The position numbers and the translations under genes were made by a program. Positions 8,411-64,000 of a stretch of 64,000 nucleotides of DNA are shown here, in pieces; the stretch's first letter is position 1; the number at the start of each line of letters is the position of its first letter. The DNA comes from Sphaerolaimus hirsutus (lineage: Eukaryota > Nematoda > Chromadorea > Monhysterida > Sphaerolaimidae), in assembly GCA_964036195.1 (NCBI GenBank), contig OZ038451.1, positions 4,158,529-4,222,528 on the forward strand. Direction: 5' to 3'. Under the pieces are notes generated by a model, which saw nothing but the letters and a program-made list of their open reading frames with translations, made no database searches and was not told the origin of the DNA.

Positions 8411-8610
8411 NNNNNNNNNNNNNNNNNNNNNNNNNNNNNNNNNNNNNNNNNNNNNNNNNNNNNNNNNNNNNNNNNNNNNNNNNNNNNNNNNNNNNNNNNN
8501 NNNNNNNNNNNNNNNNNNNNNNNNNNNNNNNNNNNNNNNNNNNNNNNNNNNNNNNNNNNNNNNNNNNNNNNNNNNNNNNNNNNNNNNNNNNNNNNNNNNN
8601 NNNNNNNNNN
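8411..8610. other. Assembly gap (200 N)
   Basis: Exactly 200 N, a conventional placeholder for a scaffold join of unknown size. The missing 3' exons of the cadherin gene may lie here or further left. Confidence 0.99.
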
Positions 8611-8692
8611 TTCTTTTAAACAGTTAAATGGGAAAACGTTTGCACAATTCCCAGTCTAGGATCTTTAAAACAGACACCAGAAAAAAACAAAC

Positions 8693-27677: not shown

Positions 27678-27681
27678 TGTA
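27678..27681. repeat. Target site duplication, left (TGTA)
   Basis: TGTA directly precedes the 5' LTR and is repeated directly after the 3' LTR (45240-45243). Four bases fits Ty3/Gypsy integration. Confidence 0.9.
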
Positions 27682-28521
27682 TGTAGGTGGAAATATGGCT
27701 AGCTAATCATGCGTAAAAACGTAACGACAATTCTGTGCAGACACTCCGACGACTCGAGAACGACCATGTGTGACCGAATGACGGCCCGCGGTGCACAGGG
27801 AAGTCACAGTGAACGTGCGGTTCGCTGTGCACTGCAAATCCGCCAACGAAGCCGCAGCCCCAGGACGGTACGCCCGAATGGACACTACTGCGGCCATGAA
27901 TTTATTAATTATTTCTTTTCCGTTAATTACGTAATTACTTCCCGTGTGATGCTAATTTTTCTTTTTTATTTCATGTTTCATTAATTAAGCTAATTAGGTT
28001 ACCCGCATTTTGAGTTAATTAAGTGATTACTTTCAATTTTTTTTTAAATGCATTTTCCAACATGTACTTTCGAATGTTATAATTTTTAGATTTTATCAAG
28101 TTTACATATTTGGTTAAAAGGGTGTAGTGTCTGGGAATGGTTTAGAAAGGCTTTTAATGTTTCTAGTTAAGCTAAAAGGTGTTGACTCTGTTAAACGCTT
28201 AGACGCCCCGATAGATAACATTCAGAAAATTCCCCGACCAAGTGCATTTTTATTTAGGACTAGGTAATGGGTGGAAAAGTGGCAAACAGCAATTATTGTC
28301 AACATGCGACTGCAAGACACATGCAGAGCACAGTTTACAGTGAAGAGCACAGCAGTGCCAATTAATTATTCCCATCACCCAGGGTGATTGGCAAACTCAC
28401 AAGTGCTAGTGTTTTTGCAGCGTGTGTTCAGGCCCAAAGTTCCAACCCTTACCCGGCAATGCAATAACCTTGAACAACCCCCGCAAATGAGCGTTCTTTC
28501 TGTGGCCTTGGTCGGGCGCGC

Positions 28522-28528
28522 TATAAAA
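28522..28528 (+). promoter_or_regulatory. TATA box of 5' LTR
   Basis: TATAAAA within GCGCGCTATAAAATATTTTT. It is the only strong TATA box in the LTR and is placed about 450 bp before the AATAAA signal. The 3' LTR equivalent is 44400-44406. Confidence 0.65.
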
Positions 28529-28971
28529 TATTTTTCACCTAAAGGGGCGCAGGTTGATAACACGTGTCACACCACCTGCTCTAGATTGTACCGTAACCTC
28601 TGAATAGAAACCCAGTTTCCGACACTCACCTTTGAGATAAATTGCATTTTAATTACGTCATTGATAATCACAGTTACCTTACGTTTGGTTCAATTCATGT
28701 TTGTACCCGTTTTATTTAATTAGTTATTTTTTCCCGCACTTAATTAAATTACTTGTGCCTTGTACGCTATGTTAACAGTTTTCCAGTGATCATTGATTTC
28801 GCCTTATTAATTCGCTCATTACGGTTAATTGTTGTGTCTTTGATTTAGTATTCATTTCGCTTATGGTAGATTTTGGTGATTATAAAGCGCGCTGATTTTA
28901 CATTTTTTTACCCACTAGAGGCTATACGACTCACTTGAGCTATTGTGAAATTGACTCTGATTATATTGCTA

Positions 28972-28977
28972 AATAAA
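28972..28977 (+). terminator. Poly(A) signal of 5' LTR copy
   Basis: AATAAA within GCTAAATAAAGTTCCCGTG, marking the probable end of R. The functional copy for the transcript is in the 3' LTR at 44850-44855. Confidence 0.6.
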
Positions 28978-29120
28978 GTTCCCGTGAATCCAACTTGGTC
29001 CCCCTGAAGTATACTAACTGCTTGAATTTTAATTTGAATTTTATTAATTTTGGCTTTACTTTAATTACGGCTTATTAACAATTAATCGAAGTAAACCGCC
29101 GGCTGCAGTTACGAAAAGGG

Positions 29121-29130
29121 ATTGGTAAGT
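29121..29130 (+). promoter_or_regulatory. Candidate splice donor in U5
   Basis: ATTG|GTAAGT matches the metazoan 5' splice-site consensus and is upstream of all ORFs. It could feed a subgenomic RNA for a downstream ORF. No transcript evidence is available. Confidence 0.45.
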
Positions 29131-29367
29131 TGCCGTGTCCGTCCTCAGGAACTGTCAGGACCCCAAGGGGTACTGGCGCTGTTCCTGATTTGCGTGTAAA
29201 ATCCCCGTACCATAAAAACAATCATTTATTTAATTACGCACGCAATTAGAAGCGCAAAGGGACCGGAATTTACAATTCTCTGCCGCGGCAAATTTCGACG
29301 GGTGGCGTATTTTTGTGGTAAAAACGGAAACTAGTAAAATTAGTAAAAACGTAAAATATCTGACAAC

Positions 29368-29385
29368 TGGTAGCGTAGCGAGTGG
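29368..29385 (+). other. Primer binding site
   Basis: TGGTAGCGTAGCGAGTGG begins two bases after the LTR. It starts with TGG, complementary to a tRNA CCA end, as expected for minus-strand priming. I could not name the tRNA. Confidence 0.7.
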
Positions 29386-29480
29386 TTTCCTAAGCAAGCC
29401 ATAAAGTTTTCTGTCCGGGGCGCCTGATCAACGCCTCTACAAAAAACGGCTTCACGGATAACGAATCACCCCAAAGGGAA

Positions 29481-32400
29481 TTGAGATCGAGGGGGCCAGC
29501 AAGCTTACAAGGGGACACTATAGAACAAGTTTGGCACGCTGCGTTGGAGAAGCAAAAACAAGCACGAAGGCGCGCGCGACAACAGAAAACTGGGCAAGAA
29601 GTGGACGCACAACTTGCTGCAGCTGAGAGTCAAGCAGGAGACAGTGAGTCGAACGATTCGGTTAACCCTGAAACAGAAGCGCCGGAAGCGCTAGAGGAGA
29701 GTGAAAGTCAACGCTGGTCTGGACAGACAGCTGAGGATACACCGGTAATCAGATTATCAACGGTTGAAGGCGCAGGGCCTGCGCCAGACAGTTTTAGTCA
29801 GTGGAAGACGCCAGCTGTACCGGCAGCGGCACGGCAGCTAACGTCCAGCGCAGAAGCAGAAGAAGCGCCTGGGACAAGTAGACAAGCTGCAGGAAAGGAA
29901 GCAGGAAAGACAGGTAAGTGGTCTAAGCTTCGGAGGACATTGGGTTGGAGCGCGGGCAGCTCATCCATATCGCCTGGAGTGCGATCGGGTTCTGAAGTCG
30001 GTTCAGACGGATACGTTGGTGACAGCGAGCCTCTAGGGCAGCCGTCGATTCAACGTGATTATCCTTTGATTGCAGCTGAGCTTGGAGCTACTGCAGATCA
30101 ATTTCCCGTGATTGAAAATACCGTAGCGGAACTGTTGGAGACAGCGGCACAGAGTGGAGACACTTCCCCGGCGCTGCAGTTAAGCCCCCCGAAGAGCACT
30201 TCGACGCCGAGAGACGTGTCAGGCAACAGCAGTCGAAACTTATCGAGCGACCAGTCGAGATCGCAGAGCGCAACTGCAAAGGCTAGACGCCAGTTAATTA
30301 AGACCGAATTTTCAAGTAACCCCCCCGTGATAATTATTAGCAGCCCCGCTAGCAGAATGACAAACAATGGCGCAAACCAGACGGCGGCCCCGGCGCTGGA
30401 AGATAGGTACGCAAAGGTCACTAATGCGAATTTAATTTACCAAGCTACCATAATGGACCTGGACCCGGTGCAAACAACGCCATCCTGTGCACAATGGACA
30501 CCCAAAAAGGCATGTGAAGCGGCAAAGAAATGGGCAAACATGATGAGTCAGGCGAGACCGATTGGTGCTTTCTCACAGAATGGTGAACCAGGGGATTTGC
30601 GTATGGTGGCACTAATTAAAACTGCTATGAATTTATGGGGAAGTGACCCAGTCAACGAGGTACCTAGGGTGGAACATTACTTGAGGGAATTTGAAGCGCA
30701 CCACAGTTCACATGGCGATGATATAGTTGATCTGGCGACTGCGTACCAGCAGCATAATCAAGCCCTACAAAATCAGAACGCGACGCTGGGAGGAAATTCG
30801 CCGGCCAGTGGTCAGCAGCCAATAGTACTGACCAATGGTCAAGCAGCGCCCTTGCAATCATCGACGGCACCAGCGGCGCCCCTGTCGGCAGCTGGAACAG
30901 ACCAGGTGAGAACTGTTACGCAGCGACGCGCTCGATCCCGCTCGCCGGCGTCTTCAAGAAGCTCGTCAGCTACGTCCGAAGTGGCAAGGCCCACGGACCC
31001 GGGACAAAATTGGCAATTAGAACAAAGCAATGCGGCAGTCATTACAGCCTTAGCACAGCAATGTGGATACTTTCGCGGCAAACCAAATGAGGGTTTCAGG
31101 GACTGGAGAAGGAGCTGGGACACGGTGTGTGACGCGCTGCGCATAAAATTACAGGAGCGGAAGCCGCTGGTAAAATTGTTTTTGAAAGGCAGTGCCAGAG
31201 CCATTTTCAACACGGGATACAGAGAATTGCGCGACCTGAACTACAAGGACATGATGCAAGCACTGGAGAAGTTCTATGAAAATCCGAATGACAAACATCA
31301 TGCACAGAGAGAGATTTTTGAGACACGACAGGGCGCAGATGAGTCGGTACTGGAATGGGCGGTACGTTTGGAAAAATTGATAAAACGCGCCTATCCAGGC
31401 ATGGGTCATGAAAAACGAGGTGACACATGCATGATAAAATTTCATGGAGGATTGAGAAATGAAATTCGGCGCAATGTACCTGTCACGGCTTCTATCACAT
31501 GGAAAGAAATGGTTGACAACGCGCGTGCTCAGGAGAGCTTTTTGGAAGCAGAACAAAGCCAGAATAAGGGAGAAAAATCTAAACAGGATGTAGTTGCCAG
31601 CGCGACCGACAAGGTAATGGACAGGTTGATGGCGCTGAACATGCCCGCCATGGCTGGACTGCCGTCCCAGGCCGACAAGACGCTAGAGACAATGGAACAG
31701 AAAATGACTGAGAGTGTTGCCAAATTTGACTCGGTGCACCAAGAGATAGCGAAGAAATTAGCGCAACTGGGCGCGTTGGAAGGTAAACTTTTGGGATTGA
31801 ATAGGGACCCCCCTAAGTTGCCCCCGCGCAAATTTGACAAAGGATGTTGGGAATGTGGCTCTGAAGAGCACATCAGATATGAGTGTCCGAAACTCACCCC
31901 AGAACAGAGGGAACAGTATTTCCAAAGGAGCCGCGGCGGCGGAACATCCAGAGGAAATGGACGTGGGCCCGGCGGAGGACAACGTGGCGGCTATCAGAGA
32001 AATGACCAAGCCCAAGCGATGCAGCCAGGTATGGTGCCCATGCAATACGCATATCCGCAGTGGCAACCAGCTCAGCCGATGCCTGTGCAGCCGGCGCAGA
32101 CGGTACAGAGGGCTGGTGATATGAACATGCAACCGCAGATGATGGCATATCAAACGCCGCCAGCTAATTGGATGGCTATGGGACCGGATGGGCGCATGCA
32201 ACAATATAACATGCAACCAGTACCGGTAAGTAACCCCCACGTAGAGTCGCTGAACCCCACCCGAGTGACCAGTACGACTGGAATGACCATGCATGTGCGC
32301 GAAGATGATCGATGCATGATGATACGTCCCGTTAATAAATTAATCCCTGTGATGCAAGGCCTGGAAATAGAGGCAGATGAACCTGACGAACTGGTTCCAG

Positions 32401-33677
32401 AGTCACCCGAAGAACAGCAGCGCACTACGGGAATGCATGTGCTCGCGCAAGAGCGGGAATTCTGGATCAAGCCATGGGCATACATGCGAACTGAAAAGGG
32501 TTATTTGTTTGGAACTACTTGGCTGGCCTTTTTACGCAGGATTGGAATGCATGATCTGAGAGAAACGGACTGTACGCTGTGGCCCAATTGTCCAGCCGAC
32601 GACCACTCGGACACGCTGACTGAGGTGCCCTTGGATGTGCTCATGAATATCAGTCTGGACCCGTTTTTGTACGCCACGCCGGCCGCTCTGCCGCCGCGCA
32701 CTGGATCAAGCAACCACATAGACAGGTATATGGGTTTTCTGTCTACTGAGGAAGGGGTGCGCCCCGCGCCGCGCGCGTACTCAGAACCCCCCTACATGCC
32801 CCAGGTCGCACAGTCGCTGTTTTTTGTATTGGCAGTTGGGTTAATTATAATGGGATTAGCTTTATTACCGGGCGCGGGCGCGACTACCATGCCCTCGTTT
32901 CCATTGCTATGCAGTGACTTGACGGATCACTACGATTTATACACGTACCCCCCCCTACCAAATTGCACGGCTATTGTTGACACTACGGCGTCATTAGAAC
33001 GGCCACGAAAATTGACACTGACAATCTACAAGCGAAATATGGTAGAATATCGTGCGGCAGCGCACAGGTGTGTGGCCTCTACCAGAACGGCAAGGACGTA
33101 CCAGAACTTCTGGGGCGACGTCACGCTGGAAAAGTTTGATTCTAACCCCCGATCTGTGGGCGCCGCCGAGTGCGAAGGCATGATTAAATATCACAAATGC
33201 AACGATGGGCCCATGACCCCTGTGAGTGATCTGGACAATGCATGGGACACCCAATACCCAACCAATGTTAGCTACTCAGGACATGGATTGTATTGTTGCA
33301 AATGGGTGAGTGAAACGACGCCACACTGTGGGCTGTTTCGAGGGGAAGTACGAATGAGATATGGAGCCAACACCATGCAAAGCACGCTGGGTGAGGTTAG
33401 TAAGTGCAATTATGAAATGGGTGCATGCACGCTAGAAGACGGCAGCCAATTAACATGGAAACCGAACCCGAAGGCGGAATGCCCTTATGAAAAATGGCGT
33501 GAAATGCATGGACGTATTAGACAGGATATCTGGCTGGCCAATGATCATACACTATCACTGTCTTTCAGAGCACATGAAGAGGTTGAATCATGCGGCATCA
33601 AACTGTGGAAATCAGATCAGGATATAGTAGTGGCCCCATTTGAAAAGGCAGTGATTCGAAGCGTCAGACAAAAATGA
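29481..33677 (+). CDS. Gag, continuing in frame into an envelope-like glycoprotein (N-terminal part)
   Basis: Numbered from a TTG at 29481; the frame is open from 29394, and the first in-frame ATG is only at 30357, so the true start is unclear. Residues 1-500 are low-complexity and charged. About 510-692 is a retrotransposon capsid domain (GYFRGKPNEGFRDW, LKGSARAIF). A CCHC knuckle C789-X2-C-X4-H-X4-C follows, then Gly/Arg- and Met/Gln-rich stretches. At about 1113-1135 a hydrophobic segment (SLFFVLAVGLIIMGLALL) resembles an internal signal peptide. It precedes a roughly 260-residue Cys-rich region with NCT and NVS sequons. The Cys pattern (for example YCCKW) resembles glycoproteins of chuvirus-like viruses and some invertebrate LTR elements, judged by eye. 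The frame stops at a TGA (33675-33677) just after basic residues, inside the glycoprotein region. Confidence 0.85.
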   Translation: MRSRGPASLQGDTIEQVWHAALEKQKQARRRARQQKTGQEVDAQLAAAESQAGDSESNDSVNPETEAPEALEESESQRWSGQTAEDTPVIRLSTVEGAGPAPDSFSQWKTPAVPAAARQLTSSAEAEEAPGTSRQAAGKEAGKTGKWSKLRRTLGWSAGSSSISPGVRSGSEVGSDGYVGDSEPLGQPSIQRDYPLIAAELGATADQFPVIENTVAELLETAAQSGDTSPALQLSPPKSTSTPRDVSGNSSRNLSSDQSRSQSATAKARRQLIKTEFSSNPPVIIISSPASRMTNNGANQTAAPALEDRYAKVTNANLIYQATIMDLDPVQTTPSCAQWTPKKACEAAKKWANMMSQARPIGAFSQNGEPGDLRMVALIKTAMNLWGSDPVNEVPRVEHYLREFEAHHSSHGDDIVDLATAYQQHNQALQNQNATLGGNSPASGQQPIVLTNGQAAPLQSSTAPAAPLSAAGTDQVRTVTQRRARSRSPASSRSSSATSEVARPTDPGQNWQLEQSNAAVITALAQQCGYFRGKPNEGFRDWRRSWDTVCDALRIKLQERKPLVKLFLKGSARAIFNTGYRELRDLNYKDMMQALEKFYENPNDKHHAQREIFETRQGADESVLEWAVRLEKLIKRAYPGMGHEKRGDTCMIKFHGGLRNEIRRNVPVTASITWKEMVDNARAQESFLEAEQSQNKGEKSKQDVVASATDKVMDRLMALNMPAMAGLPSQADKTLETMEQKMTESVAKFDSVHQEIAKKLAQLGALEGKLLGLNRDPPKLPPRKFDKGCWECGSEEHIRYECPKLTPEQREQYFQRSRGGGTSRGNGRGPGGGQRGGYQRNDQAQAMQPGMVPMQYAYPQWQPAQPMPVQPAQTVQRAGDMNMQPQMMAYQTPPANWMAMGPDGRMQQYNMQPVPVSNPHVESLNPTRVTSTTGMTMHVREDDRCMMIRPVNKLIPVMQGLEIEADEPDELVPESPEEQQRTTGMHVLAQEREFWIKPWAYMRTEKGYLFGTTWLAFLRRIGMHDLRETDCTLWPNCPADDHSDTLTEVPLDVLMNISLDPFLYATPAALPPRTGSSNHIDRYMGFLSTEEGVRPAPRAYSEPPYMPQVAQSLFFVLAVGLIIMGLALLPGAGATTMPSFPLLCSDLTDHYDLYTYPPLPNCTAIVDTTASLERPRKLTLTIYKRNMVEYRAAAHRCVASTRTARTYQNFWGDVTLEKFDSNPRSVGAAECEGMIKYHKCNDGPMTPVSDLDNAWDTQYPTNVSYSGHGLYCCKWVSETTPHCGLFRGEVRMRYGANTMQSTLGEVSKCNYEMGACTLEDGSQLTWKPNPKAECPYEKWREMHGRIRQDIWLANDHTLSLSFRAHEEVESCGIKLWKSDQDIVVAPFEKAVIRSVRQK

Positions 33678-35537
33678 GCGCAAGGTCGACCCACGCTGGG
33701 AATAGTGAGCGCAGGCCAATTAGCAGCCAGCATGCAGGCGGTATACGAAACGGCAGAACAAACCATGCGTGCACAGACCGTAGCCACCTGCAAGAACGTG
33801 CAACACTTCCAAGAATTTGTGCGCCTGGCCATGAGTGAACACGCCACTACGACAGCCCGCTGGTACATGAATGATAATGAAATAATTGCCAAACCCGCGC
33901 CGGACGGATTTTTGCTCCACAAATGTTTCGCGGTAAAAACGTACGAGATAATGAAAGAGAAAAAGTCTCCAGAATGTTATGAAACAGTACCTGTGCAAGT
34001 TAGCGTGCATGGGCAAAATGTGACGTTACACATGAATAGGTTGACAAACATTTTGCACTTTCAAGCGATCCCGGGATCATGCACTAATGCACACAATCGT
34101 GTGGTAATGTTAAATGGACAGTGGTACAAATATCTACCGGAAGTAGGCGGCCTGGAACACTTACCTATGTATAACACACACAGTTTCCCGCAGAAATGGC
34201 AACAGGAAAAGGTTAAAGACGTGCATCATCAGATTTTTGCCGCCACGACCATGTACAACTTATCAGAATTATTGCCGACGACCACCCTAAATGACGTATG
34301 GCATGCATATTCAATCGTGCGGCAAATTATGCAGGGGGCGGAGCCGAAGGTGGAATCACACATGCAAAGGCATCGAACATTGGCAAAATCAGTATTGGCG
34401 CTGGGATGGTGGGATTTTGACACTTGGCGCACCTGGCTGCAAGTATGGATCTACCTGATATGTGCCCTAGTCACCATGCAATATCTACTAGCCGCGCTCA
34501 TGGCTGCAGCGCCGGAAATGGCCGTGACTTTGGTGAACAGGGCAAAGGAAAAAATCAAAAGGCGACCAAAGACAGAAGAAAAGTCCAATATCATTGTCGA
34601 ATTGGCTGAGGACCGCCCTAGCGAACAGGTAAAGGTAAGAACGGTAATTAACCCGTGCGTGGGAATGCCAAGTGGCATGCCCGCACTCACGGGCGCGCGT
34701 CGTTTTCCCGCTATACAATACAGTATCAACAGAAAATGCGATCTGGAAGAAGAATCGGTGTGCATGATCACTTTCTCGACGGAGGAAAGAGATAACATAC
34801 ATCAGGTAGCCAATCGACGCGAAGAGATCGTGCATGTGTATTACAGCCCATCCATTACCATAACCATCGACGGGAGAGAATATCGGAGATGTCTACTGGA
34901 CACAGGTGCCATGCGTTCATTATGCAACAGAGACGTGCTGATGCGACATAAGGAAAAGGCTACGAAGCATGATGAAGTTTCACCTATTGGAGCCCTCAGG
35001 TGCGCGGCAGATTCGAAACTTTTGGTATTGGGACAGATGGAAGTACCGGTAACGATGGGAAACCACACCTTCGGGATTGTGTTTCAGGCAGTAAACGGAT
35101 TAGCTGGTGAAATTTTAATTGGCGCAGACGTTTTACGGCACATGGTAGTAGACATGCCCGCAAGGGAACTACGAATCCCTACGGCCAACGCGATAATTCC
35201 CTTCGATAACCCAGACCCGGAAGTGCAGCAGCGCAGAATTTACGCTATTGTGAACGAAAAAATAGAAATTCTGGCTAGACATGAAGCGCTAGTGACCGCA
35301 AAATTATCTGCCCCCATGGATGAAAGGTTATTTACGGTCATGGGATTGGATACGGTAGGTGAACGCTGTGGCGTTATGGCTGCTTCAGCGGCCTATGAAA
35401 CTAGTGCCCCGGTGTTTCAGGTGAGATGTGCAAATGTACGAAATCAGCCCGTAGTGCTACAGGTAGGACAGCGCATTGCGGTAGTCGAACCAGTGGATTG
35501 CGTGCTGAAAGTGAAACCTGGAGACCCCCCCCACTGA
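33678..35537 (+). CDS. Envelope-like glycoprotein (C-terminal part) continuing into retropepsin
   Basis: Same frame as the Gag ORF, separated only by the TGA at 33675-33677; a GTG at 33705 is the first alternative start. Numbered from 33705, residues 1-240 look like the second half of a viral surface glycoprotein, with NVT and NLS sequons. A membrane anchor lies at about 247-269 (VWIYLICALVTMQYLLAAL), followed by a basic tail (EKIKRRPK). The retropepsin follows: LLDTGA with D399, and ILIGADVL at 470-477, the two signature segments of an aspartic protease. The ORF ends at TGA 35535 just after a run of eight C (35525-35532), where the pol frame takes over. An envelope lying between Gag and protease is atypical, since retroviral and errantiviral env genes follow pol. 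Confidence 0.82.
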   Translation, partial: AQGRPTLGIVSAGQLAASMQAVYETAEQTMRAQTVATCKNVQHFQEFVRLAMSEHATTTARWYMNDNEIIAKPAPDGFLLHKCFAVKTYEIMKEKKSPECYETVPVQVSVHGQNVTLHMNRLTNILHFQAIPGSCTNAHNRVVMLNGQWYKYLPEVGGLEHLPMYNTHSFPQKWQQEKVKDVHHQIFAATTMYNLSELLPTTTLNDVWHAYSIVRQIMQGAEPKVESHMQRHRTLAKSVLALGWWDFDTWRTWLQVWIYLICALVTMQYLLAALMAAAPEMAVTLVNRAKEKIKRRPKTEEKSNIIVELAEDRPSEQVKVRTVINPCVGMPSGMPALTGARRFPAIQYSINRKCDLEEESVCMITFSTEERDNIHQVANRREEIVHVYYSPSITITIDGREYRRCLLDTGAMRSLCNRDVLMRHKEKATKHDEVSPIGALRCAADSKLLVLGQMEVPVTMGNHTFGIVFQAVNGLAGEILIGADVLRHMVVDMPARELRIPTANAIIPFDNPDPEVQQRRIYAIVNEKIEILARHEALVTAKLSAPMDERLFTVMGLDTVGERCGVMAASAAYETSAPVFQVRCANVRNQPVVLQVGQRIAVVEPVDCVLKVKPGDPPH

Positions 35538-35541
35538 ATGG

Positions 35542-36078
35542 GTGAAGCAGTGTTATGACAGAGATGTGTGTCGACAAGTGCAAGCGACTGAACCTCCCCC
35601 CAAAGTAGCCGAAGACAAATTAGGACCCCCACTGCAAGTTGCATGCCCAGACGGACACGTGATGGAATTCACCGTGCCAGAAACTTTGACGGACGAACGT
35701 AGAGAGGAACTGAAAAAGGTGATTTTGCAGTACAAAGAAGCTTTTGCCCAACATAAGTATGACATCGGCTACAGCGAATTGGTGGATTACCGGTTGCAAT
35801 TAGTGGACAAGAAACCAATTGCATGCAGAATGTACCGGTTGAGTCTGGATGATCAGCAATACTTAGAAAATCATTTGAGATGCCTCATCGAGCACGACAT
35901 CGTGGAACCCAGTACGAGCCCGTATTGTGCCCCCACGCTGGTGGTATCCAAACCGGATGGATCAAAGCGGATGGTAATTGATTACAGACGCCTGAACGCT
36001 GTTTTGCACGCTCCCCAATTCCCATTACCCCGCTTAGATGAAACAGTCGAATCTTTATGTAGCTGCAAGTATTTTTAG
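35542..36078 (+). CDS. Reverse transcriptase, N-terminal segment (pol, frame 1)
   Basis: The frame overlaps the protease end and is in the +1 frame relative to it; the listed GTG at 35542 is not a true start. It carries the fingers of a Ty3/Gypsy RT: VDYRLQLVDKKPI, CRMYRLS, IVEPSTSPYCAPTLVV, KPDGSKRMVIDYRRLN and FPLPRLDET. The frame ends with a TAG at 36076, immediately after a run of five T and right before catalytic motif A, where the sequence continues in another frame (36038-38797). Either a programmed slip, an indel or a sequence error explains each change. Confidence 0.88.
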   Translation: MKQCYDRDVCRQVQATEPPPKVAEDKLGPPLQVACPDGHVMEFTVPETLTDERREELKKVILQYKEAFAQHKYDIGYSELVDYRLQLVDKKPIACRMYRLSLDDQQYLENHLRCLIEHDIVEPSTSPYCAPTLVVSKPDGSKRMVIDYRRLNAVLHAPQFPLPRLDETVESLCSCKYF

Positions 36079-38797
36079 CAGTGCCGATATAAATCAAGCT
36101 TTCTATAACATTGCTTTGCATCCAGATGATCGACACATTACGTCGTTTAGAAATATTGTTGGACAATTTCAACTGAAACGTTTACCAATGGGATTAAAAT
36201 GCTCACCTAGTTTAGCGCAACGCTGTTTTGAATTAGCTATGGCCGGCTTAATACATCGAAATGTGTTATTATACATCGACGACTTGCTGATTTATAGTGC
36301 AACCTGGGAAACACATTTATACGACATAGGGCAGGTGTTGGAACGATTAATTAGAAATAATTTCAAAATTAGTCCAAAAAAGTGTTTTTTCGCACGCGTC
36401 ACAGCTGTACGTTTTCTAGGATTTATGATTGGCCGTGACGGCGTGTGCGTACCGGATGACAAACGCCATATAATTCAGGACTGGCCGGTACCCACTACCG
36501 TAAAAGAGGTTAAGGGTTTTCTGGGAGCTATAGGTTTTTTTAGACGCATGATTCACAGGTGCGCAGAGTTAGCTGTACCTTTGTCAAATCTCACGCGTAC
36601 GGGACCAAGAGAAAATTACAATAGCGACACCCCGGTGGATTTGACAGCGAAACCCAAAGCATTGGAAGCTTTTCATAAGCTCAAGGAAGCATTGTTAGGA
36701 AGCCCATGTTTGCAATTCCCCGATCCCAAACGCATGTTTATAATTATCACGGACGCCTCTAAAATTGCTGTTGCAGGAGTGCTAGCACAACGAGCAGAGG
36801 ACGAAAAGGTACTACATGCATGTGCCTTTTACAGCCGGAAGTTAGGCGCAACCCAAAGCAAATGGCCAGCAATTTCACTGGAAGCATGTGCAATCTACGA
36901 AAGCATACGTAATTGGCATTGTTATCTGGCGGGACGGCCTTTTGAAGTCTGGACTGACGCCAAGAGTATTTCGTGGGTAAAGAATCCTAATTTAGAGACC
37001 ACCCCGCACGCCATGCTACACAAGTTAGCTTTAGCAATTACGCCGTACCAAATCACGTTCAAGCATTTGCGGGGAAAAAGCAACGAATTAGCAGATGCAT
37101 TATCTAGAAGACAAGACGCGCCAGTGGTATTCGACGAGAAAAAGGACCTGGACGAGGCTTTTGAGCAGTTCGCACAAGTTACGTGCCGTGAAATCGCTAT
37201 CCCGCACGATAAGCAGGTTACGGTAGTTGCGGCGAGCAGGGCAGCGTACCAGCCAATCAGCGAACGAATCGGCGTAAACGAGGAGGCGGAGTTACTGCGA
37301 CCAATCAGCGACCAGACGCGCGGGCGAAAAGAGGCGGAGTCACCCGGGCTGCGAGAGCGGCAGCGGAATGCGGAAGCGCCTGGAACTGGAACAATGGCTG
37401 GTGGTTCAGGAGCCGGAAATGAAGTTGCTCCGGGTTTAACGAGTGTAACCAAGCGCAGTACAATCATGGCGCTACCTCCCATGACTTCGGTTGACAAATT
37501 GAAGCGACTACAAGCGGAAGAACCGTACATTGCCACAACTATAGAAGTGTGTCGCGCAGATAATTTTTACAGCGCCGCGCTGTATTTTATTGACCAATAC
37601 GGTTTGTTACGTCGCCAAGCGGGAACGCCCCAGATACCAGGTATACAGTTATATGACCCGGTGTGTATCCCGTCGGAATTAGTTCCATTTGTGTTAGAAT
37701 TAGCTCATAATCACCCCACGGCGGGCCACTTAGGAATAATAAAAACATTTGAAAGATTACAGGAATTCGCGTGGTTTCCAGGAATGCGGCCAGAAAGTGC
37801 GCGCTGGGTAGCTACTTGCCCTTCGTGCAACGCCAAGAAAGGTCTCAGAGCGGCAATGCGAACTCAAATGGTGTGCCGCCAGGTAGCCAAAAGGCCAGGT
37901 GATGTGATAGCAGTAGACGCAATAGGACCTTTACTAACCACGAAACGCAGAAACCGACATGTGTTGGTATTTGTTGATCAGTGCACACGTTTTGGAATTG
38001 CCGTGCCCGTTCCCGACATAAAACAAGACACAGTATCATTTGCATTTTTGTTGCACATTTTGCCTATATTTAGTGTGCCGGCCATTATACTCAGTGATAA
38101 CGCCCCTAGCTTTACCGAGGGCACTTTTGCCAAGCTTTTACAATATTTGAACGCGACCCAACACACATCATTTGCGTACACCCCCAAGAGCAACGGAATG
38201 GTGGAACGTAGGAATGGTGTTCTGATGGAAATAGTATCTCACTACGTAAATCGTACACATGACGATTGGGACATACATTTAGGCGCCGCTGTACATGCGT
38301 ACAATACATCGAAACACCCTTCCCTGCAAACCACCCCCTATGCGTTGCTATTTGGCAAGCCTGCTGCGTCCATGTGGGAGCGTATGATCGAGCCTCCCCC
38401 TGACACCGAGGCATTGCCCTCACTGCCGCATAAGCGCGCGCTTATAAATGAATTAGGCGCGCGTCTGACCACAGCACGCGAAGCAGCGCACACCGCTTTA
38501 GCAAAGGCGCAGCAAAAGGAGCAATTTTACGCCAATCGCCGTGCGCGCCGATTGAATGTGCAACGTGGGCAAGCGGTACGCGTGTACACGCCGCGTATTA
38601 CTCAGTTGACGGGCCCTAGTAAGAAATTCGCGCCTCGCTTTATCGGCCCGTATGAGTGCATTGATTATGCCCACCCATTAGTGACTTTGTTCAACAATAT
38701 TAATAAGAAAATCTATGTAGTTCATGCAGATCGTTGCAAGGCAACCAGTGAATATTTAATTCCCCCTTCTTACAGTGAATTATACGGCAACGACTGA
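36038..38797 (+). CDS. Reverse transcriptase (catalytic part), RNase H and integrase
   Basis: Numbered from 36038; real homology begins at about 36074 with SSADINQAFYNI (motif A). The RT active site is YIDD at 79-82. RNase H follows with D239 (ITDASK), E282 (SLEACA), D307 (VWTDAKS) and LRGKSNELADALSRR. A charged linker of about 100 residues leads to the integrase: zinc-binding H559, H564, C594 and C597, then catalytic D627, D687 and E723, spaced as DD35E. A basic C-terminal region ends with FIGPYECIDY. Domain order and RNase H type are those of Ty3/Gypsy elements. This is the enzyme set that copies the RNA and inserts the cDNA. Confidence 0.94.
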   Translation: MKQSNLYVAASIFSSADINQAFYNIALHPDDRHITSFRNIVGQFQLKRLPMGLKCSPSLAQRCFELAMAGLIHRNVLLYIDDLLIYSATWETHLYDIGQVLERLIRNNFKISPKKCFFARVTAVRFLGFMIGRDGVCVPDDKRHIIQDWPVPTTVKEVKGFLGAIGFFRRMIHRCAELAVPLSNLTRTGPRENYNSDTPVDLTAKPKALEAFHKLKEALLGSPCLQFPDPKRMFIIITDASKIAVAGVLAQRAEDEKVLHACAFYSRKLGATQSKWPAISLEACAIYESIRNWHCYLAGRPFEVWTDAKSISWVKNPNLETTPHAMLHKLALAITPYQITFKHLRGKSNELADALSRRQDAPVVFDEKKDLDEAFEQFAQVTCREIAIPHDKQVTVVAASRAAYQPISERIGVNEEAELLRPISDQTRGRKEAESPGLRERQRNAEAPGTGTMAGGSGAGNEVAPGLTSVTKRSTIMALPPMTSVDKLKRLQAEEPYIATTIEVCRADNFYSAALYFIDQYGLLRRQAGTPQIPGIQLYDPVCIPSELVPFVLELAHNHPTAGHLGIIKTFERLQEFAWFPGMRPESARWVATCPSCNAKKGLRAAMRTQMVCRQVAKRPGDVIAVDAIGPLLTTKRRNRHVLVFVDQCTRFGIAVPVPDIKQDTVSFAFLLHILPIFSVPAIILSDNAPSFTEGTFAKLLQYLNATQHTSFAYTPKSNGMVERRNGVLMEIVSHYVNRTHDDWDIHLGAAVHAYNTSKHPSLQTTPYALLFGKPAASMWERMIEPPPDTEALPSLPHKRALINELGARLTTAREAAHTALAKAQQKEQFYANRRARRLNVQRGQAVRVYTPRITQLTGPSKKFAPRFIGPYECIDYAHPLVTLFNNINKKIYVVHADRCKATSEYLIPPSYSELYGND

Positions 38798-39025
38798 AAT
38801 TGATTAATTAGCTGATTAATTAGCCGTTACGACCATCGCCGTCGCGTCAAGCAACACGGAACCAGGTAAAACAGGTATGAAGTGTGTGTGAAAGTGTGCG
38901 TGTGTTTTTAGGAAGCTCGTGCACCCCTTTTGCCCACGGGCAACTGGACCGCACGAGTTTTTATTACTTTCCCCGTTCATTAAAACCTTCGCAATTAATT
39001 ACTTTGTCACATTGTTATAATTATA
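38798..39025 (+). promoter_or_regulatory. Spacer between pol and helicase ORF, with hairpin and candidate 3' splice site
   Basis: Contains GTGTGTTTTTAG|G (AG at about 38909-38910), a plausible splice acceptor, followed by inverted repeats CTCGTGC (38916-38922) and GCACGAG (38951-38957) with an inner TGCCC/GGGCA stem. No ATG lies between the acceptor and the ATG at 39026, which has a favourable context (ATAATGG). Confidence 0.4.
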
Positions 39026-39136
39026 ATGGCTTCGGCTTCTCGCAAACGCCCATTTGAAGGTGCAGATGCCCCGCCCATTAAATCTAAGGAGACAAATACA
39101 CACGGTGCCTGCGGCGGCGGAACCATCCCCCCGTGA
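39026..39136 (+). pseudogene. Short 5' segment of the helicase frame, closed by TGA
   Basis: An ATG at 39026 opens 36 codons in the same frame as the helicase ORF, beginning MASASRKRPFEG with a basic, nuclear-signal-like SRKRP. It ends at TGA 39134-39136, after which the frame is open to the helicase. It is either a nonsense-broken N terminus, a read-through site or an upstream ORF. Confidence 0.5.
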
Positions 39137-39157
39137 CAACTTTACCGCGCGCAGCAG

Positions 39158-42100
39158 ATGCAAAATGGACCGGAAATCTACCCCAGCAGAGGGAAATTCG
39201 AAGGTTGGGTAGATAGAGTGTATATTGACTCGGGCGCCGACGGGCATGTTGAGTATCAGTGCCATGTGAGAATTTCTGAGCAAACAATGGCGATACTCAG
39301 CGAAAATGAGCAGTGGGTGAATGCGGATGAGGCCTATCCGTATTTTTACTATTCAAATAAGCGGGCCAAGGCGGCCAGGGACAAACGGACCACCCAGCTG
39401 GTGGATTTGTGCGCGAGAATTCAGAAACAACACCCTTCGATGTTTCTGCCCCTGGTGCGCCACGGAATGCGTTTCTCGGCGACCACGATCGCACAGAAAA
39501 TAGAGAACCCAAGGTACTGGGAGTTCACCGGCGTCGCGATATGGGGTAATCAGACAAAGTGCCCCTTAAACGTTGCCGCCCCAGTGGTAGTGAGGACGCA
39601 GGGCACGCGGCGCGTCACTCAAGCGGCACGTACATTGACGCGCGGCGACACTTCCGGCTACCAGCCCTATACGAGCGACTGGAAAACGGCGCGGCTGCGA
39701 GCGGCCTTCACGCCGTCGAATTACAAAAATCTGGAACCGTTGGGCGCGGCGGAGCGGGGCGATGCCGGGCCGGAAAAGTTGGTCATTTTACACAGAGAAT
39801 ACGTGAGTGACAGCAGAGTGGAAAATTTGAGTGCTGGACAGTTGGGGCTGGCCCACGTTGAGTATCACGACCTGAACGATTTGGACGTGTTCGGCGACGA
39901 ATTCTACGGCCATGCTTACGGGCTGCAGGTCGCCACAGCCGAGGACATCAGCACAACGGGCATCCAGCCGGACACAGAGAACCGAGACAACATGGACGCA
40001 TTTCTCAGGTATAAGTTGAGTATTTTAGCAGCGGCCCACTGCTATAACGAGTCATTTTTGCGGTTTTGGGCGAAACGCGCAACGGACGTGTGCGCACATG
40101 TGTTCTGGGAGCACACGCCGCAGGGCACTGCATGCGATATTATGGTGCGCCGCCCGGACCCAGAAGAATTACAAGCTGACACTTTCGAAGGACCAGAAGA
40201 GCAGCGCGTTCGTCTGCTGGAGCAGGTGAATACGCAGACACAGCTGTTGAACCAGGCGACACCCATGTCAGTGTTGAGCTTGGTGCTGGCCAGACCAGAT
40301 GAAGACAAACCAGCGGCGGGCAGCCCCAACCTATCAGTCAGAATTACCAGTGTGGAATCAGAGCCAACCACTACAATGCTGCATGCGAAATTGGACATGG
40401 CGACGTCGCAATCAGCACTGCCCCGTACTCTGGAGAGTGGAAGATACATGGTGCGCGGCTCAAACGACTCGCCCAATTATGACCGAACCATGCGGTCATT
40501 GCAAGCTGCCCTGAACAAAGCGCCGGTCGGCTGGGTGCCAAAAGTGGTTCAGGGGTCAAAAGTACTCACCCTGGAGGCGCAAATCCAATTAGCTGTGATA
40601 TTGAATTTGCGTCTGCTGGATGACGAAACTGACTGGGCGCTAATTAGCCGCGAGGCTAATGAGTTGCACGAATCATTGTTCAGGGGAAAGAACGAACAAA
40701 TGATTCAGGCCAAATTAGGTGAGTTTTTACCGCAGCAGGGGCAGGTAGAAATTTTAGGAACTGTGATCACAGCCGTGCGGATGCGCAAACCCCTGTTGAT
40801 TATGTGTGACTCGCCTTTCGGGTCCGGGAAGACGACCACACAAAATCAACTGGCGTATGTGTGTTCACGCGGCTATAACTATTATAACTCGAGACCCAGG
40901 GTGCGCGCGGGCTCCGATTTGCCATCGGACAAGCAGCCGAACGCCAAATACCATTCGACGCTCATCACGTGCACGGTCAACTCGGCGGCCGACGAAGGCG
41001 CGCGCAGGGCCCTGACCAACCTGAATAAATTAGGGCAGCGGGATATTTTTGGGGCTTTGGAAGTTTTGTTGCGGGAACGCGCGAAATGGACCGCTATGGC
41101 CGATACGCCATTTTCTGAAATGCAAAAACTGGAGGGTTTTGAAGAATTTTTGAAATTGAGAGCGGCATTCCCGGTGCGCGTTTTGAGCCCCATGTGGGAA
41201 ACTGACCCCACTTACAGTACCACCCCCGCGACCAAATTGCCAACCCTACACACCCTAGCACAGCGAACCGGCCACAACATCGTCCGCCTCAGCCCCGAAT
41301 GGACGGCAGCGCTGGAAAAGTACGACGGCGCCAAGAAGGACTACGAGCTGGTGGACGAAATTATCAACAACTGCACGGACGACGCCGTTATACGCGCGCA
41401 GCTGACCGAACAAGTGCCATTTCTCACCGCCGAAGATGGAGACGAACAGCCATTCGATGACTTCGAGGCCGGCGTGGCGGGCGCCCGGACTGGTGAGGCT
41501 AGCTTAGCTGACCAGGGATTTTGGGGTAAGGTGCTGCGTAGGGCGCTGTCTAAATATGTCAGGGCTACGGTCAGGCTGCACCGGGTGTTTTTGGAGGTGG
41601 TGCAGCCCGGTCAAATCCATGTCACTTTAGACTCCGCCCACGACGCCCGTATAAAAAGTGTGACGGCGTGTGCGGTAATTGTTGACGAAGCGTCTTTGGC
41701 GTCTGACGCTGCTGTAATTAGCGTGGTTCAGGCGGCTCAGCTCCCGGTGAACGGCATGCTACTTCTATTTGGAGACAGTAAACAATTGACGCGTATGATT
41801 CGCGTGCAAGACTGGGTGGAGCCCGTCCTGAAACCCGACCCCACCCTCATTGATAGGCTCACACAATATCAACTATGTCCCGTGGTTCACTTGGAAACAG
41901 TGTTCCGCGGGCATCGCCAGCTCATTCAGGCCAACTCTGTGGCGGCGTACAACGGACTGCTACGCGCCTACAACGACACCGCAGCGCACGGCGCCACCAT
42001 GTTGCCCGCACCTGGCGACTTCGAGGATGGCGTCATGCTGTCATCAACGTTGGTGCACCAGGGCTGCGAATCAAAAGAGGGCATGTCCATTATCAACAAG

Positions 42101-42997
42101 AAGGAGCTGCGCATCATCCTGCACCTGTACGATTACCTCGTGGCCACAGTGAAAGAAGATCCCACCCTGCCCTGGGCAGATCTTACAGATCCCGCTAGTT
42201 TGCTAATTGTGTGCTTTTATGCGGTGCAGGCGCGCGCCCTAATCAGTCGACTAGTAGCCCACACAGAACATGACGCGGCTTACTGGGCCACCCGTGTGAT
42301 TACTGCCGACAAAGCACAGGCCCGTGAAGCGGAAGTGGTCATCATTTCCTGCGTGCGCGGCAGCCCGCCTACCGACTCCGCCCAGCTGGATGCCGATCCC
42401 AAGAAGGCGTATGGTAGAGTTGGATTTGTAGCGGAGTTGCCCCGGGGAAACGTAGCCACCTCCCGCGCCAAATGTGTGCGCATCGTGGTGGCCAACGCCG
42501 AGACCATGTTGTGGTCAACCTTTTTCCACCGGTTTCTGACGGTCGAGCACAAAGCCGACCGGATTTACTCTTACGAATCAGGCCAAATCTGGGGAAACGT
42601 GTTGGGATTTTGGCCACCGGAATGGCGCCCGCGGGCTGACTTGAAAGAACTAGTCGGACCGGACAGATACCCGGCCCTCGAAGAAGAACTGCAGGCGGAA
42701 TGTTTATCTGATATTGAAACCGCCACCGCGGGCTCTGACTCCTCCGCCGACGCGCGGGAGGAAGGTGTGCCGGTGTTGGAGGAAGTGGTGCCCGTTGTCG
42801 AGCCAGTTTACCGCCCTAATGAAGAATATTCCCCCATTAGCAACGACATGGCGGCCATGGCACTGCAGAACGTAGCCGAGCCCCCCTCGCCGCCGCCCGA
42901 GCACCACGACGCGGTCGAGGCCATCCCACTGCCACCGGAGGAGGCCCTAGCGCAACAGGTAGAACACCACATGGAAAATGGTAATTGTGAAAATTGA
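39158..42997 (+). CDS. Superfamily 1 (UPF1-like) helicase encoded by the LTR element
   Basis: 1279 codons from the ATG at 39158, all on the sense strand between pol and the 3' LTR. All core SF1 motifs are visible in order: Walker A SPFGSGKTT (552-560), Walker B VDEAS (D843, E844), motif III FGDSKQL (G872), FRGH (916-919), motif V TADKAQAREAEVVIISCVRG (about 1049) and motif VI NVATSRAK (1098-1105, arginine finger). This set matches the UPF1/DNA2-type SF1 helicases. The first 540 residues match nothing I recognise, and no Cys/His zinc domain like that of UPF1 is evident. The C-terminal tail is acidic and Pro/Glu-rich. Possible roles are unwinding RNA or cDNA during replication, or countering host RNA surveillance; both are inference. 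Codon use and GC match the element's other ORFs. Confidence 0.9.
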   Translation: MQNGPEIYPSRGKFEGWVDRVYIDSGADGHVEYQCHVRISEQTMAILSENEQWVNADEAYPYFYYSNKRAKAARDKRTTQLVDLCARIQKQHPSMFLPLVRHGMRFSATTIAQKIENPRYWEFTGVAIWGNQTKCPLNVAAPVVVRTQGTRRVTQAARTLTRGDTSGYQPYTSDWKTARLRAAFTPSNYKNLEPLGAAERGDAGPEKLVILHREYVSDSRVENLSAGQLGLAHVEYHDLNDLDVFGDEFYGHAYGLQVATAEDISTTGIQPDTENRDNMDAFLRYKLSILAAAHCYNESFLRFWAKRATDVCAHVFWEHTPQGTACDIMVRRPDPEELQADTFEGPEEQRVRLLEQVNTQTQLLNQATPMSVLSLVLARPDEDKPAAGSPNLSVRITSVESEPTTTMLHAKLDMATSQSALPRTLESGRYMVRGSNDSPNYDRTMRSLQAALNKAPVGWVPKVVQGSKVLTLEAQIQLAVILNLRLLDDETDWALISREANELHESLFRGKNEQMIQAKLGEFLPQQGQVEILGTVITAVRMRKPLLIMCDSPFGSGKTTTQNQLAYVCSRGYNYYNSRPRVRAGSDLPSDKQPNAKYHSTLITCTVNSAADEGARRALTNLNKLGQRDIFGALEVLLRERAKWTAMADTPFSEMQKLEGFEEFLKLRAAFPVRVLSPMWETDPTYSTTPATKLPTLHTLAQRTGHNIVRLSPEWTAALEKYDGAKKDYELVDEIINNCTDDAVIRAQLTEQVPFLTAEDGDEQPFDDFEAGVAGARTGEASLADQGFWGKVLRRALSKYVRATVRLHRVFLEVVQPGQIHVTLDSAHDARIKSVTACAVIVDEASLASDAAVISVVQAAQLPVNGMLLLFGDSKQLTRMIRVQDWVEPVLKPDPTLIDRLTQYQLCPVVHLETVFRGHRQLIQANSVAAYNGLLRAYNDTAAHGATMLPAPGDFEDGVMLSSTLVHQGCESKEGMSIINKKELRIILHLYDYLVATVKEDPTLPWADLTDPASLLIVCFYAVQARALISRLVAHTEHDAAYWATRVITADKAQAREAEVVIISCVRGSPPTDSAQLDADPKKAYGRVGFVAELPRGNVATSRAKCVRIVVANAETMLWSTFFHRFLTVEHKADRIYSYESGQIWGNVLGFWPPEWRPRADLKELVGPDRYPALEEELQAECLSDIETATAGSDSSADAREEGVPVLEEVVPVVEPVYRPNEEYSPISNDMAAMALQNVAEPPSPPPEHHDAVEAIPLPPEEALAQQVEHHMENGNCEN

Positions 42998-43559
42998 TAC
43001 GAAACAATTTTTGGTCAAAAAAGTTTTAAGATGTAATAATTCATGCACAACTTTTTGTCATCAAGAAAAACAGACAACTTTGTAACAAAAAACCAGTAAT
43101 TAAAAACATACTTGTTAATATTCCATGAAAACAATTAGAAAATCTTGTCGACGATCAATTTTCACACGCACGGACTGCAAAGTGTCGGTCGAGCAGGTAA
43201 CTTGAATGTTGATTCCAAACTGCCCGTCCAACAGTGGCACGACGCTGTGAAACAACACAGATTAGTAATCCAATTAATTAGTTTCCAAAAAAGAAAAAAC
43301 TTTTTCTCACATCGAGCCCTGAGCGGGAACCAAAATTTCGAAGTTTCGAGCACAAAAAGCCGGCACGGCGGAAAGCTGATGCCATAATTCAAATGAAGAC
43401 GAGCCATATTTGCACCCCCAGGGCATGTGACTGCCACAGCCGTCCACCGAAAAATGCAGAGAAGGCATGATTTTTGAATAACCAAAAAAACGGCGCAAAA
43501 CACTTTTTCTGAACATGTCGTTTTTAGCCCGGAGGTAAAAAATTAATGGCTGGTGGGAT
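42998..43559. other. Non-coding region before the 3' LTR
   Basis: No ORF of interest. The expected polypurine tract next to the LTR is weak: the last bases are GGAGGTAAAAAATTAATGGC then TGGTGGGAT. It holds no second envelope gene. Confidence 0.6.
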
Positions 43560-45239
43560 TGTAGGTGGAAATATGGCTAGCTAATCATGCGTAAAAACGT
43601 AACGACAATTCTGTGCAGACACTCCGACGACTCGAGAACGACCATGTGTGACCGAATGACGGCCCGCGGTGCACAGGGAAGTCACAGTGAACGTGCGGTT
43701 CGCTGTGCACTGCAAATCCGCCAACGAAGCCGCAGCCCCAGGACGGTACGCCCGAATGGACACTACTGCGGCCATGAATTTATTAATTATTTCTTTTCCG
43801 TTAATTACGTAATTACTTCCCGTGTGATGCTAATTTTTCTTTTTTATTTCATGTTTCATTAATTAAGCTAATTAGGTTACCCGCATTTTGAGTTAATTAA
43901 GTGATTACTTTCAATTTTTTTTTAAATGCATTTTCCAACATGTACTTTCGAATGTTATAATTTTTAGATTTTATCAAGTTTACATATTTGGTTAAAAGGG
44001 TGTAGTGTCTGGGAATGGTTTAGAAAGGCTTTTAATGTTTCTAGTTAAGCTAAAAGGTGTTGACTCTGTTAAACGCTTAGACGCCCCGATAGATAACATT
44101 CAGAAAATTCCCCGACCAAGTGCATTTTTATTTAGGACTAGGTAATGGGTGGAAAAGTGGCAAACGGCAATTATTGTTGACATGCGACTGCAAGACACAT
44201 GCAGAGCACAGTTTACAGTGAAGAGCACAGCAGTGCCAATTAATTATTCCCATCACCCAGGGTGATTGGCGAACTCACAAGTGCTAGTGTTTTTGCAGCG
44301 TGTGTTCAGGCCCAAAGTTCCAACCCTTACCCGGCAATGCAATAACCTTGAACAACCCCCGCAAATGAGCGTTCTTTCTGTGGCCTTGGTCGGGCGCGCT
44401 ATAAAATATTTTTCACCTAAAGGGGCGCAGGTTGATAACACGTGTCACACCACCTGCTCTAGATTGTACCGTAACCTCTGAATAGAAACCCAGTTTCCGA
44501 CACTCACCTTTGAGATAAATTGCATTTTAATTACGTCATTGATAATCACAGTTACCTTACGTTTGGTTCAATTCATGTTTGTACCCGTTTTATTTAATTA
44601 GTTATTTTTTCCCGCACTTAATTAAATTACTTGTGCCTTGTACGCTATGTTAACAGTTTTCCAGTGATCATTGATTTCGCCTTATTAATTCGCTCATTAC
44701 GGTTAATTGTTGTGTCTTTGATTTAGTATTCATTTCGCTTATGGTAGATTTTGGTGATTATAAAGCGCGCTGATTTTACATTTTTTTACCCACTAGAGGC
44801 TATACGACTCACTTGAGCTATTGTGAAATTGACTCTGATTATATTGCTAAATAAAGTTCCCATGAATCCAACTTGGTCCCCCTGAAGTATACTAACTGCT
44901 TGAATTTTAATTTGAATTTTATTAATTTTGGCTTTACTTTAATTACGGCTTATTAACAATTAATCGAAGTAAACCGCCGGCTGCAGTTACGAAAAGGGAT
45001 TGGTAAGTTGCCGTGTCCGTCCTCAGGAACTGTCAGGACCCCAAGGGGTACTGGCGCCGTTCCTGATTTGCGTGTAAAATCCCCGTACCATAAAAACAAT
45101 CATTTATTTAATTACGCACGCAATTAGAAGCGCAAAGGGACCGGAATTTACAATTCTCTGCCGCGGCAAAATTCGACGGGTGGCGTATTTTTGTGGTAAA
45201 AACGGTAGTAAAATTAGTAAAAACGTAAAATATCTGACA
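43560..45239 (+). repeat. 3' LTR (1680 bp)
   Basis: Nearly identical to the 5' LTR. Visible differences include AACGGCAATTATTGTTGACA versus AACAGCAATTATTGTCAACA (near 44163), GGCGAACTC versus GGCAAACTC, CCCATGAATCC versus CCCGTGAATCC, GCGCCGTTC versus GCGCTGTTC, and the missing AAAC. TATA box at 44400-44406, AATAAA at 44850-44855. Confidence 0.96.
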
Positions 45240-45243
45240 TGTA
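45240..45243. repeat. Target site duplication, right (TGTA)
   Basis: TGTA follows the final CTGACA of the 3' LTR and matches the four bases before the 5' LTR. Confidence 0.9.
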
Positions 45244-63473: not shown

Positions 63474-63894
63474 TACCGTATTACCTCGAATTATTCCCCC
63501 CCTTGAATTAACCCCCCCTCGAATTAACCCCCCCTCAAAATGGGCTGGGGAAATAATAAACCCCCCTCGAAATACCCCCCCCCTCCGGAACGGTATACAT
63601 CATGTATGCAATGTACATGATGTATTTATTACTACTTATTTGCATCGCAGCTACTCTTATACGCTCATCTGTGTACAGATGTACATCTATAGCCCCAATA
63701 TAACCTATATTCTCACATTTATTACCGTTTTTGTGTAAGAAATAGCGCATTCTTTACTATGAATTCCACGAAATTTTCTGGCGAAATAATAAAACCCCCC
63801 CTCGAATAACCCCCCCCCCCCTCGAATAAACCCCCCCTCAAATTTTGCTGGCGAAATAATAAACCCCCATGGGGTTTTTCGAGGTAATACGGTA
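63474..63894. mobile_element. CCGTATT-TIR MITE
   Basis: TACCGTATTACCTCG to CGAGGTAATACGGTA, ATGTACATGATG core, C-run blocks. Confidence 0.85.
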
Positions 63895-64000
63895 TTTAGT
63901 ATTTTTTAGAAAAATCATGGTTTCTTCAAAATTTTCTTATTTTAGCTAACAGAAAATCGGGATTTTAGCAACAAAATTACATTTTGAGGCATAACAAAAT

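Follow-up and report, generated by a model that had tools for sequence, protein, structure and literature searches.

Does a long terminal repeat (LTR) retrotransposon carry a UPF1-like helicase as a gene of its own, or has a host gene been caught up in a single copy? The question is raised by a stretch of 64,000 nucleotides from the nematode Sphaerolaimus hirsutus (contig OZ038451.1, positions 4,158,529 to 4,222,528), referred to here as the window. It contains a single such element, 17.6 kb long, at 27682-45239 on the forward strand. In an initial annotation, an open reading frame (ORF) between integrase and 3' LTR was described as a superfamily 1 (SF1) helicase, and this placement holds: the ORF runs in the sense direction from 39158 to 42997 (1279 amino acids), between the pol ORF, which ends at 38797, and the 3' LTR at 43560-45239. 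The earlier start that had been given, at 39026, stands only in part. This ATG is usable in other copies, and in 18 of 20 further copies the frame from it begins MASASRKRP, but in the window copy a stop codon at 39134-39136 leaves 1279 amino acids counted from 39158. The answer is that the helicase is almost certainly an integral, selected gene of a multi-copy LTR element. What it does can be said much more tentatively.

Copy number and linkage to the element

The genome searched comprises 348 Mb on 762 contigs. A search with the helicase protein gave 608 first-look candidates, of which 36 were scored. These 36 listed matches, among them the window's own, all span residues 1-1279 with an identity of 98-100%, and 34 lack an internal stop. 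The ORF is thus not a product of chance. A search with the Pfam domain AAA_12, in which 150 of 454 candidates were scored, gave 148 matches that are the element helicase, judged by score and by the profile range covered (4-194, in one case 5-194), and two that are host UPF1. An open frame of at least 1279 amino acids is found at 102 of the 148 helicase loci.

The gene is also found in the same surroundings. Twenty further copies were fetched, and the order of integrase, spacer, helicase, tail and 3' LTR is the same in 19; the 3' LTR match of one copy (L012) is cut short. L019 (1-9937) is an internal-deletion derivative that has lost the sequence between about 32019 in gag and about 39135 in the helicase, which places gag directly against the helicase; helicase and LTR are retained. 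The join has a 4-nt microhomology (GCGA) and lies outside the gag frame. It was considered as a trace of splicing, which is ruled out by the shared GCGA and the lack of GT/AG, and as an in-frame gag-helicase fusion, which is ruled out by the frame.

When the genome was searched with pol, the best 50 of 2272 candidates were scored, again including the window's. The helicase lies downstream in all 50 (48 by list and two by reading), with the helicase domain 5776-5808 bases past the pol start in 47 and 6867 bases past it in one. In L041 the helicase is in place and in L040 it sits in a rearranged copy; both frames are broken, the longest motif-bearing open stretches being 898 amino acids in L041 and 1055 in L040. 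Among the 48 list-paired copies, 33 have an open frame of at least 1279 amino acids. No pol copy lacking the helicase is present among these best 50 of 2272, although the lists are ranked by similarity and distant helicase-less subfamilies could exist.

The rival explanation that a host gene or pseudogene was captured once, in the window copy only, can be regarded as refuted, both by these counts (the 148 of 150 scored AAA_12 matches, the gene order in 19 of 20 further copies and the 50 pol matches) and by the distinctness of the host's own gene. One exon of host UPF1 was compared: it matches UPF1 in the PDB at 7.8e-63, and the element helicase is 28% identical to it over 96 residues. Host UPF1 is, by this comparison, a gene separate from the element helicase. 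The initial annotation had named consistently ORF-less copies and a one-off capture as the outcomes that should count against it, and neither was found among the scored matches. As a side observation, the two host UPF1 loci (L038 and L039; C65 and C14) are near-identical and perhaps haplotype copies.

Selection on the helicase

The ratio of amino acid-changing to silent polymorphism (pN/pS) was estimated from 21 copies, the 20 fetched and the window's. Across these, 364 helicase codons vary silently only, while 100 vary in the amino acid, 81 of them through singletons only. Mean pN/pS is 0.043, with little difference along the protein (0.040 in residues 1-560 and 0.047 both in 561-1150 and in the tail), and in 20 of the 21 copies the between-copy difference at codon positions 1, 2 and 3 is 1.2, 0.45 and 7.5%. 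Motifs I, III and VI are invariant in all 21. For integrase the value is 0.049 in 18 copies, the helicase giving 0.042 in the same 18; L019 (no integrase), L020 (a length change) and L027 (a stop) were left out of that set.

Both LTRs were read in six copies, the window's included, and the pairs are 99.3-99.9% identical (1673 of 1684 aligned positions, or 99.3%, in the window copy). A matching 4-bp duplication flanks five of the six; the C2 copy has none, and has some extra bases at the edge of its 5' LTR. Between copies the silent divergence (pS) is 0.11, far above the divergence since insertion in these six LTR-paired copies, and the constraint must therefore have acted while the element was replicating. 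As the element replicated again and again, the helicase stayed under strong purifying selection.

Three findings count on the other side. The frame is shorter than 1279 amino acids at 46 of the 148 loci. Motif II (DEAS) is altered in three of 21 copies and motif IV in two. Finally, the 20 further copies are those that rank highest by similarity to the helicase protein, a choice that lowers pN somewhat; in our judgement a neutral gene at 11% silent divergence should not look like this despite that bias.

The same data bear on two rival explanations of what the gene is for. It might be kept for a service to the host, for example against viruses, as has been proposed for the helicases of other retrotransposons (accessible text of PMC6338049). 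This is very improbable here, where selection is seen across dispersed copies with near-identical LTRs (6/6) and resembles that on integrase, a pattern of element replication. The helicase might instead be packed into particles and aid reverse transcription, opening structure or displacing strands on an RNA of about 17 kb. The great length of the element would suit such a role, as would the fact that the gene is constrained as strongly as integrase, but the helicase is a separate ORF past pol, outside the gag and pol frames, the products of which go into particles, and the gag-helicase join in L019, being out of the gag frame, lends no support. We regard this role as unlikely.

Sequence and relationships of the helicase

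The SF1 motifs named in the initial annotation are all present, and together with motif Ia they follow one another as expected: I (GSGKTT, 40820), Ia (40967), II (VDEAS, 41675), III (FGDSKQL, 41759), IV (FRGH, 41894), V (42296) and VI (NVATSRAK, 42449). Of the two hidden Markov models proposed there as a check, one agrees and the other falls short. AAA_12 matches residues 896-1114 at 3e-24 with 86.1 bits and AAA_11 reaches 19.1 bits, the cut-off being 27 for both. Two other profiles also stay below their cut-offs, Viral_helicase1 (PF01443) with 13.5 bits against 21 and the NCBIfam model of the IGHMBP2 family with 49.9 bits against 348.9, far below. Among single PDB sequences, the helicase best matches a chain entered as "5'-3' RNA helicase-like protein" (1.4e-5), which we take to be SEN1, and UPF1 (0.047); the best single-sequence relative is a fungal SEN1-type protein (P0034), 28% identical over 335 amino acids. 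A protein search with the helicase core gave two matches, one at E 0.18 that is fungal and SEN1-type by its domains and one at E 1.6 that is named senataxin. Of the 7995 candidates scored in a search of 5.8 billion proteins with the whole helicase, none matched at 1e-3. By pairwise and profile scores, then, the element helicase is a divergent SF1 helicase closest to the SEN1/UPF1/IGHMBP2 group, and the UPF1-like identity first assigned to it is upheld in this wider form.

The N-terminal part is a different matter. Pfam gives no match to residues 1-581 at E up to 5, and a search for a Cys-His pattern in residues 1-560 found seven cysteines and no C..C or C..H pair. Since neither a family match nor such pairs are present, the N-terminal Cys-His (UPF2-binding) domain of UPF1 is, on these patterns, absent from the element helicase.

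Searches of viral contigs, one with the helicase and one with pol, gave 7 and 9 stretches that fit a pattern, none of them a relative. A phage search gave one match (E 7e-3), and in PHROGs a single family, of unknown function, matched at 3.6e-5. Viral 3C-like proteases in the PDB matched residues 250-338 at E 0.26-0.5, which was taken as chance. AlphaFold models of two window pieces, made without an alignment, had a predicted confidence (pLDDT) of 34 and 31 and were not used.

Anatomy of the element

The features of the element are collected in Table 1. It has TG...CA LTRs and a short target duplication, gag with a CCHC knuckle, a protease and the order reverse transcriptase (RT), RNase H, integrase, and is classed by its LTRs and domain order as a Ty3/Gypsy-type element (Metaviridae). 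A protein search with pol gave 31 matches at 22-35% identity, with a chromodomain in nine of the 31. The position of the primer binding site matches in five other 5' ends that were read, and the site is slightly shorter in one. The spacer from integrase to the ATG at 39026 measures 228 bases, and 562 bases separate the end of the helicase from the 3' LTR. An Rfam search gave no match.

Table 1. Positions in the window of the features of the LTR element
Feature	Position	Strand	Remarks
Target site duplication TGTA	27678-27681 (5' copy), 45240-45243 (3' copy)	.	flanks both LTR ends
5' LTR, TGTAGG...CTGACA	27682-29365	+	TATAAAA at 28522; donor-like GGTAAGTT at 29124
Presumed primer binding site TGGTAGCGTAGCGAGTGG	29368-29385	+	2 nt past 5' LTR
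gag frame extending into glycoprotein-like region	29394-33674	+	ends at stop 33675-33677 in window copy
Retrotrans_gag	31170-31409	+	Pfam 26 bits, cut-off 24.1
CCHC knuckle	31842-31892	+	zf-CCHC 16 bits, under cut-off
Glycoprotein-like region	32814-34502	+	between nucleocapsid and protease, in frame
First hydrophobic segment (gag/glycoprotein frame)	32814-32873	+	
Monjiviricetes_fusion (PF24664) match	33786-34145	+	Pfam
C-terminal hydrophobic segment	34446-34502	+	
Aspartic protease	34890-35537	+	DTGA within 34890-34913; protease families 15-17 bits, under cut-offs
RT, N-terminal part	35515-36078	+	ends at TTT TAG C (36073-36079)
pol: remaining RT, RNase H, integrase	36038-38797	+	RVT_1, RT_RNaseH, H2C2, rve above cut-off, in order
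Acceptor-like TTTTTAG, then stable hairpin (38911-38962)	38905-38962	+	upstream of helicase
Helicase frame, first 44 codons	39026-39157	+	open in 18/20 further copies; stop 39134-39136 in window copy
SF1 helicase ORF, 1279 amino acids, ATG start	39158-42997	+	AAA_12 at 41843-42499
Possible small antisense gene	43245-43468	-	exon 43468-43311, 66-nt intron
3' LTR	43560-45239	+	

The frame that starts in gag runs on into a glycoprotein-like region, and in two copies (L031 and L032) a single open frame leads from this region via the protease into RT. Its match to the fusion protein family PF24664 is at the threshold, scoring 27.2 or 24.8 bits (cut-off 27) depending on how the region is cut, and a PDB search with the region gave nothing better than E 0.59. 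A putative chuvirus-like glycoprotein sited ahead of the protease may explain why the env position is free for a helicase.

The window copy has three breaks: the stop at 33675-33677 in the glycoprotein-like region, a frame break at a run of C near 35.53 kb between protease and RT, and the stop in the helicase N-terminus. The first is seen in none of the four other copies read there. The C-run break is shared by one of four others and the frame is open in three, although L029, open at this point, has another stop farther on. Copies free of each of the three breaks exist.

A further break, the TTT TAG C at which the N-terminal part of RT ends, behaves differently. All 19 further copies in which this region is present keep it, and the RT sequence resumes past it in the +1 frame without loss. 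A stop codon at a slippery site is the logic behind programmed +1 frameshifting. Because RT continues in this way, we infer that TTT TAG C is a programmed +1 frameshift site, placed within RT rather than at a gag/pol boundary. A conserved frame break inside RT, together with a glycoprotein-like region between nucleocapsid and protease, is a departure from the usual gene plan.

Two observations concern the window outside the element. Dispersed repeats with C runs (CCCCCCTCAAATTTTGC...) are present in many copies, at 10-73, 5431-5494, 63832-63895 and elsewhere. A presumed host gene with cadherin-like translations, read by eye exon by exon, lies upstream of the element at 8600-24500 on the reverse strand; these translations, like the animal-type UPF1, are in keeping with an animal host.

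Candidate expression signals

At least 90% of 21 3' LTRs retain the donor-like GGTAAGT. With the acceptor-like site ahead of the helicase it looks like the retroviral plan, in which a gene past pol is expressed from a spliced mRNA. The hairpin beside the acceptor-like site was evaluated on a stretch of 126 nt (-31.6 kcal/mol, z -3.9), and none of 200 shuffled sequences was equally stable. It is identical in eight aligned copies (of 21) save for the last few bases, the surrounding spacer being more variable, and across 20 rows conservation drops to 90-99% in a handful of columns. Covariation was seen at none of 20 pairs in a hairpin that hardly varies.

The possible antisense gene in the tail is open in exon 1 in 19 of the 20 copies that could be read, one more copy not being placeable. 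Exon 1 varies mainly at third codon positions (2, 4 and 12 sites), whereas the proposed exon 2 has no such bias. Such a gene bears on another rival explanation, one also proposed for the helicases of insect long interspersed nuclear elements (LINEs): the helicase would counter RNA silencing by unwinding or removing element RNA that is antisense or double-stranded. Sense-antisense RNA may form in the tail. Weak suppression of silencing has been reported for transposon helicases (accessible parts of PMC6338049 and PMC5563155), but those helicases are of the viral type, whereas the Viral_helicase1 score here stays below its cut-off. A role in silencing seems distinctly unlikely.

Possible function

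The reading we prefer, plausible though short of probable, is that the helicase acts on the genomic RNA of its own element, remodelling it either for export or to escape surveillance. The LTR-driven transcript would be spliced from the donor-like site in the LTR to the acceptor-like site, giving a helicase mRNA. The protein would enter the nucleus via its basic N-terminus, in which SRKRP presumably resembles a nuclear localisation signal. There it would load on the unspliced 17-kb genomic RNA and remodel its protein coat, and the remodelled RNA would be exported and spared by RNA surveillance. A more far-reaching version, in which the element supplies its own counterpart of UPF1/SEN1 to carry unspliced RNA through export and past decay, with the envelope gene moved into the gag-pol frame, is more speculative again.

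A role on the genomic RNA fits an RNA that would retain its splice sites, carries a long sequence past its first stop codon and must leave the nucleus whole. About 9 kb follow the frame end at 36078, and by the rule of nonsense-mediated decay a long stretch beyond a stop is expected to provoke decay. Related strategies have been described. Human immunodeficiency virus 1 (HIV-1) recruits host UPF1 into the Rev-CRM1 export complex, as stated in the accessible text of PMC4693258, and the Cer1 element exports its genomic RNA by means of CERV, a protein encoded in the env slot and translated from a spliced mRNA (accessible text of PMC10309623). The anatomy favours action on the genomic RNA and proves none of the functions proposed in the initial annotation, which were help to reverse transcription, processing of the RNA and escape from nonsense-mediated decay.

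Some considerations speak against an export or protective role. SEN1 acts in transcription termination and UPF1 in decay, and either could harm the RNA. A helicase that worked in reverse transcription, or in evading silencing, would show the same selection. Frameshifting at 36073 would also cut the use of the stop on which part of the argument is built.

Comparison with known systems

In the titles and abstract openings searched, which excluded all bioRxiv preprints and most subscription papers, no Ty3/Gypsy element with a helicase of the UPF1/SEN1 type was found. The absence of a precedent claimed in the initial annotation is to this extent borne out, but it does not extend to retrotransposons at large, as viral-type SF1 helicases occur in TRAS and Jockey LINEs and as fusions in Ty1/Copia elements (excerpts of PMC5563155 and PMC6338049). 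Those helicases are likewise SF1 enzymes borne by retrotransposons, with a full set of motifs (Morozov 2019, PMC6338049, citing Lazareva 2015; accessible text). They are, however, virga/negevirus-like and located in LINE ORFs or Copia fusions, whereas the helicase described here is a separate UPF1/SEN1-type gene that occupies the env slot and was scored at 148 loci.

With the cellular proteins SEN1/senataxin, UPF1/NAM7 and IGHMBP2 the element helicase has the helicase core with AAA_12 in common. It is very divergent from them, having no Pfam match in residues 1-581 and no Cys-His domain. HIV-1 and other retroviruses depend on host UPF1, and an element with its own such helicase would let the limiting step be probed directly.

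The position of the gene also has parallels. Cer1 of Caenorhabditis elegans is itself a Ty3/Gypsy element. Its CERV is likewise a non-env protein in the env slot, from a spliced mRNA that is established there and proposed here; CERV has no obvious homology beyond nematodes, and its export role is experimental while that of the helicase is inferred (accessible text of PMC10309623). In LTR elements of bdelloid rotifers an enzyme gene likewise takes the env position, the ORF3 there encoding a DEDDy exonuclease or a GDSL esterase; these are other enzymes, and the passages of PMC5408684 that cover them name no helicase ORF3. The element described here indicates that the env slot of an LTR element can hold an RNA-remodelling type of enzyme that is selected as strictly as integrase. 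A chuvirus glycoprotein in an LTR element is known from Anakin (excerpts of PMC7642597). Anakin, however, is a BEL/Pao element, whereas here the glycoprotein-like region lies in frame between nucleocapsid and protease of a Ty3/Gypsy-type element.

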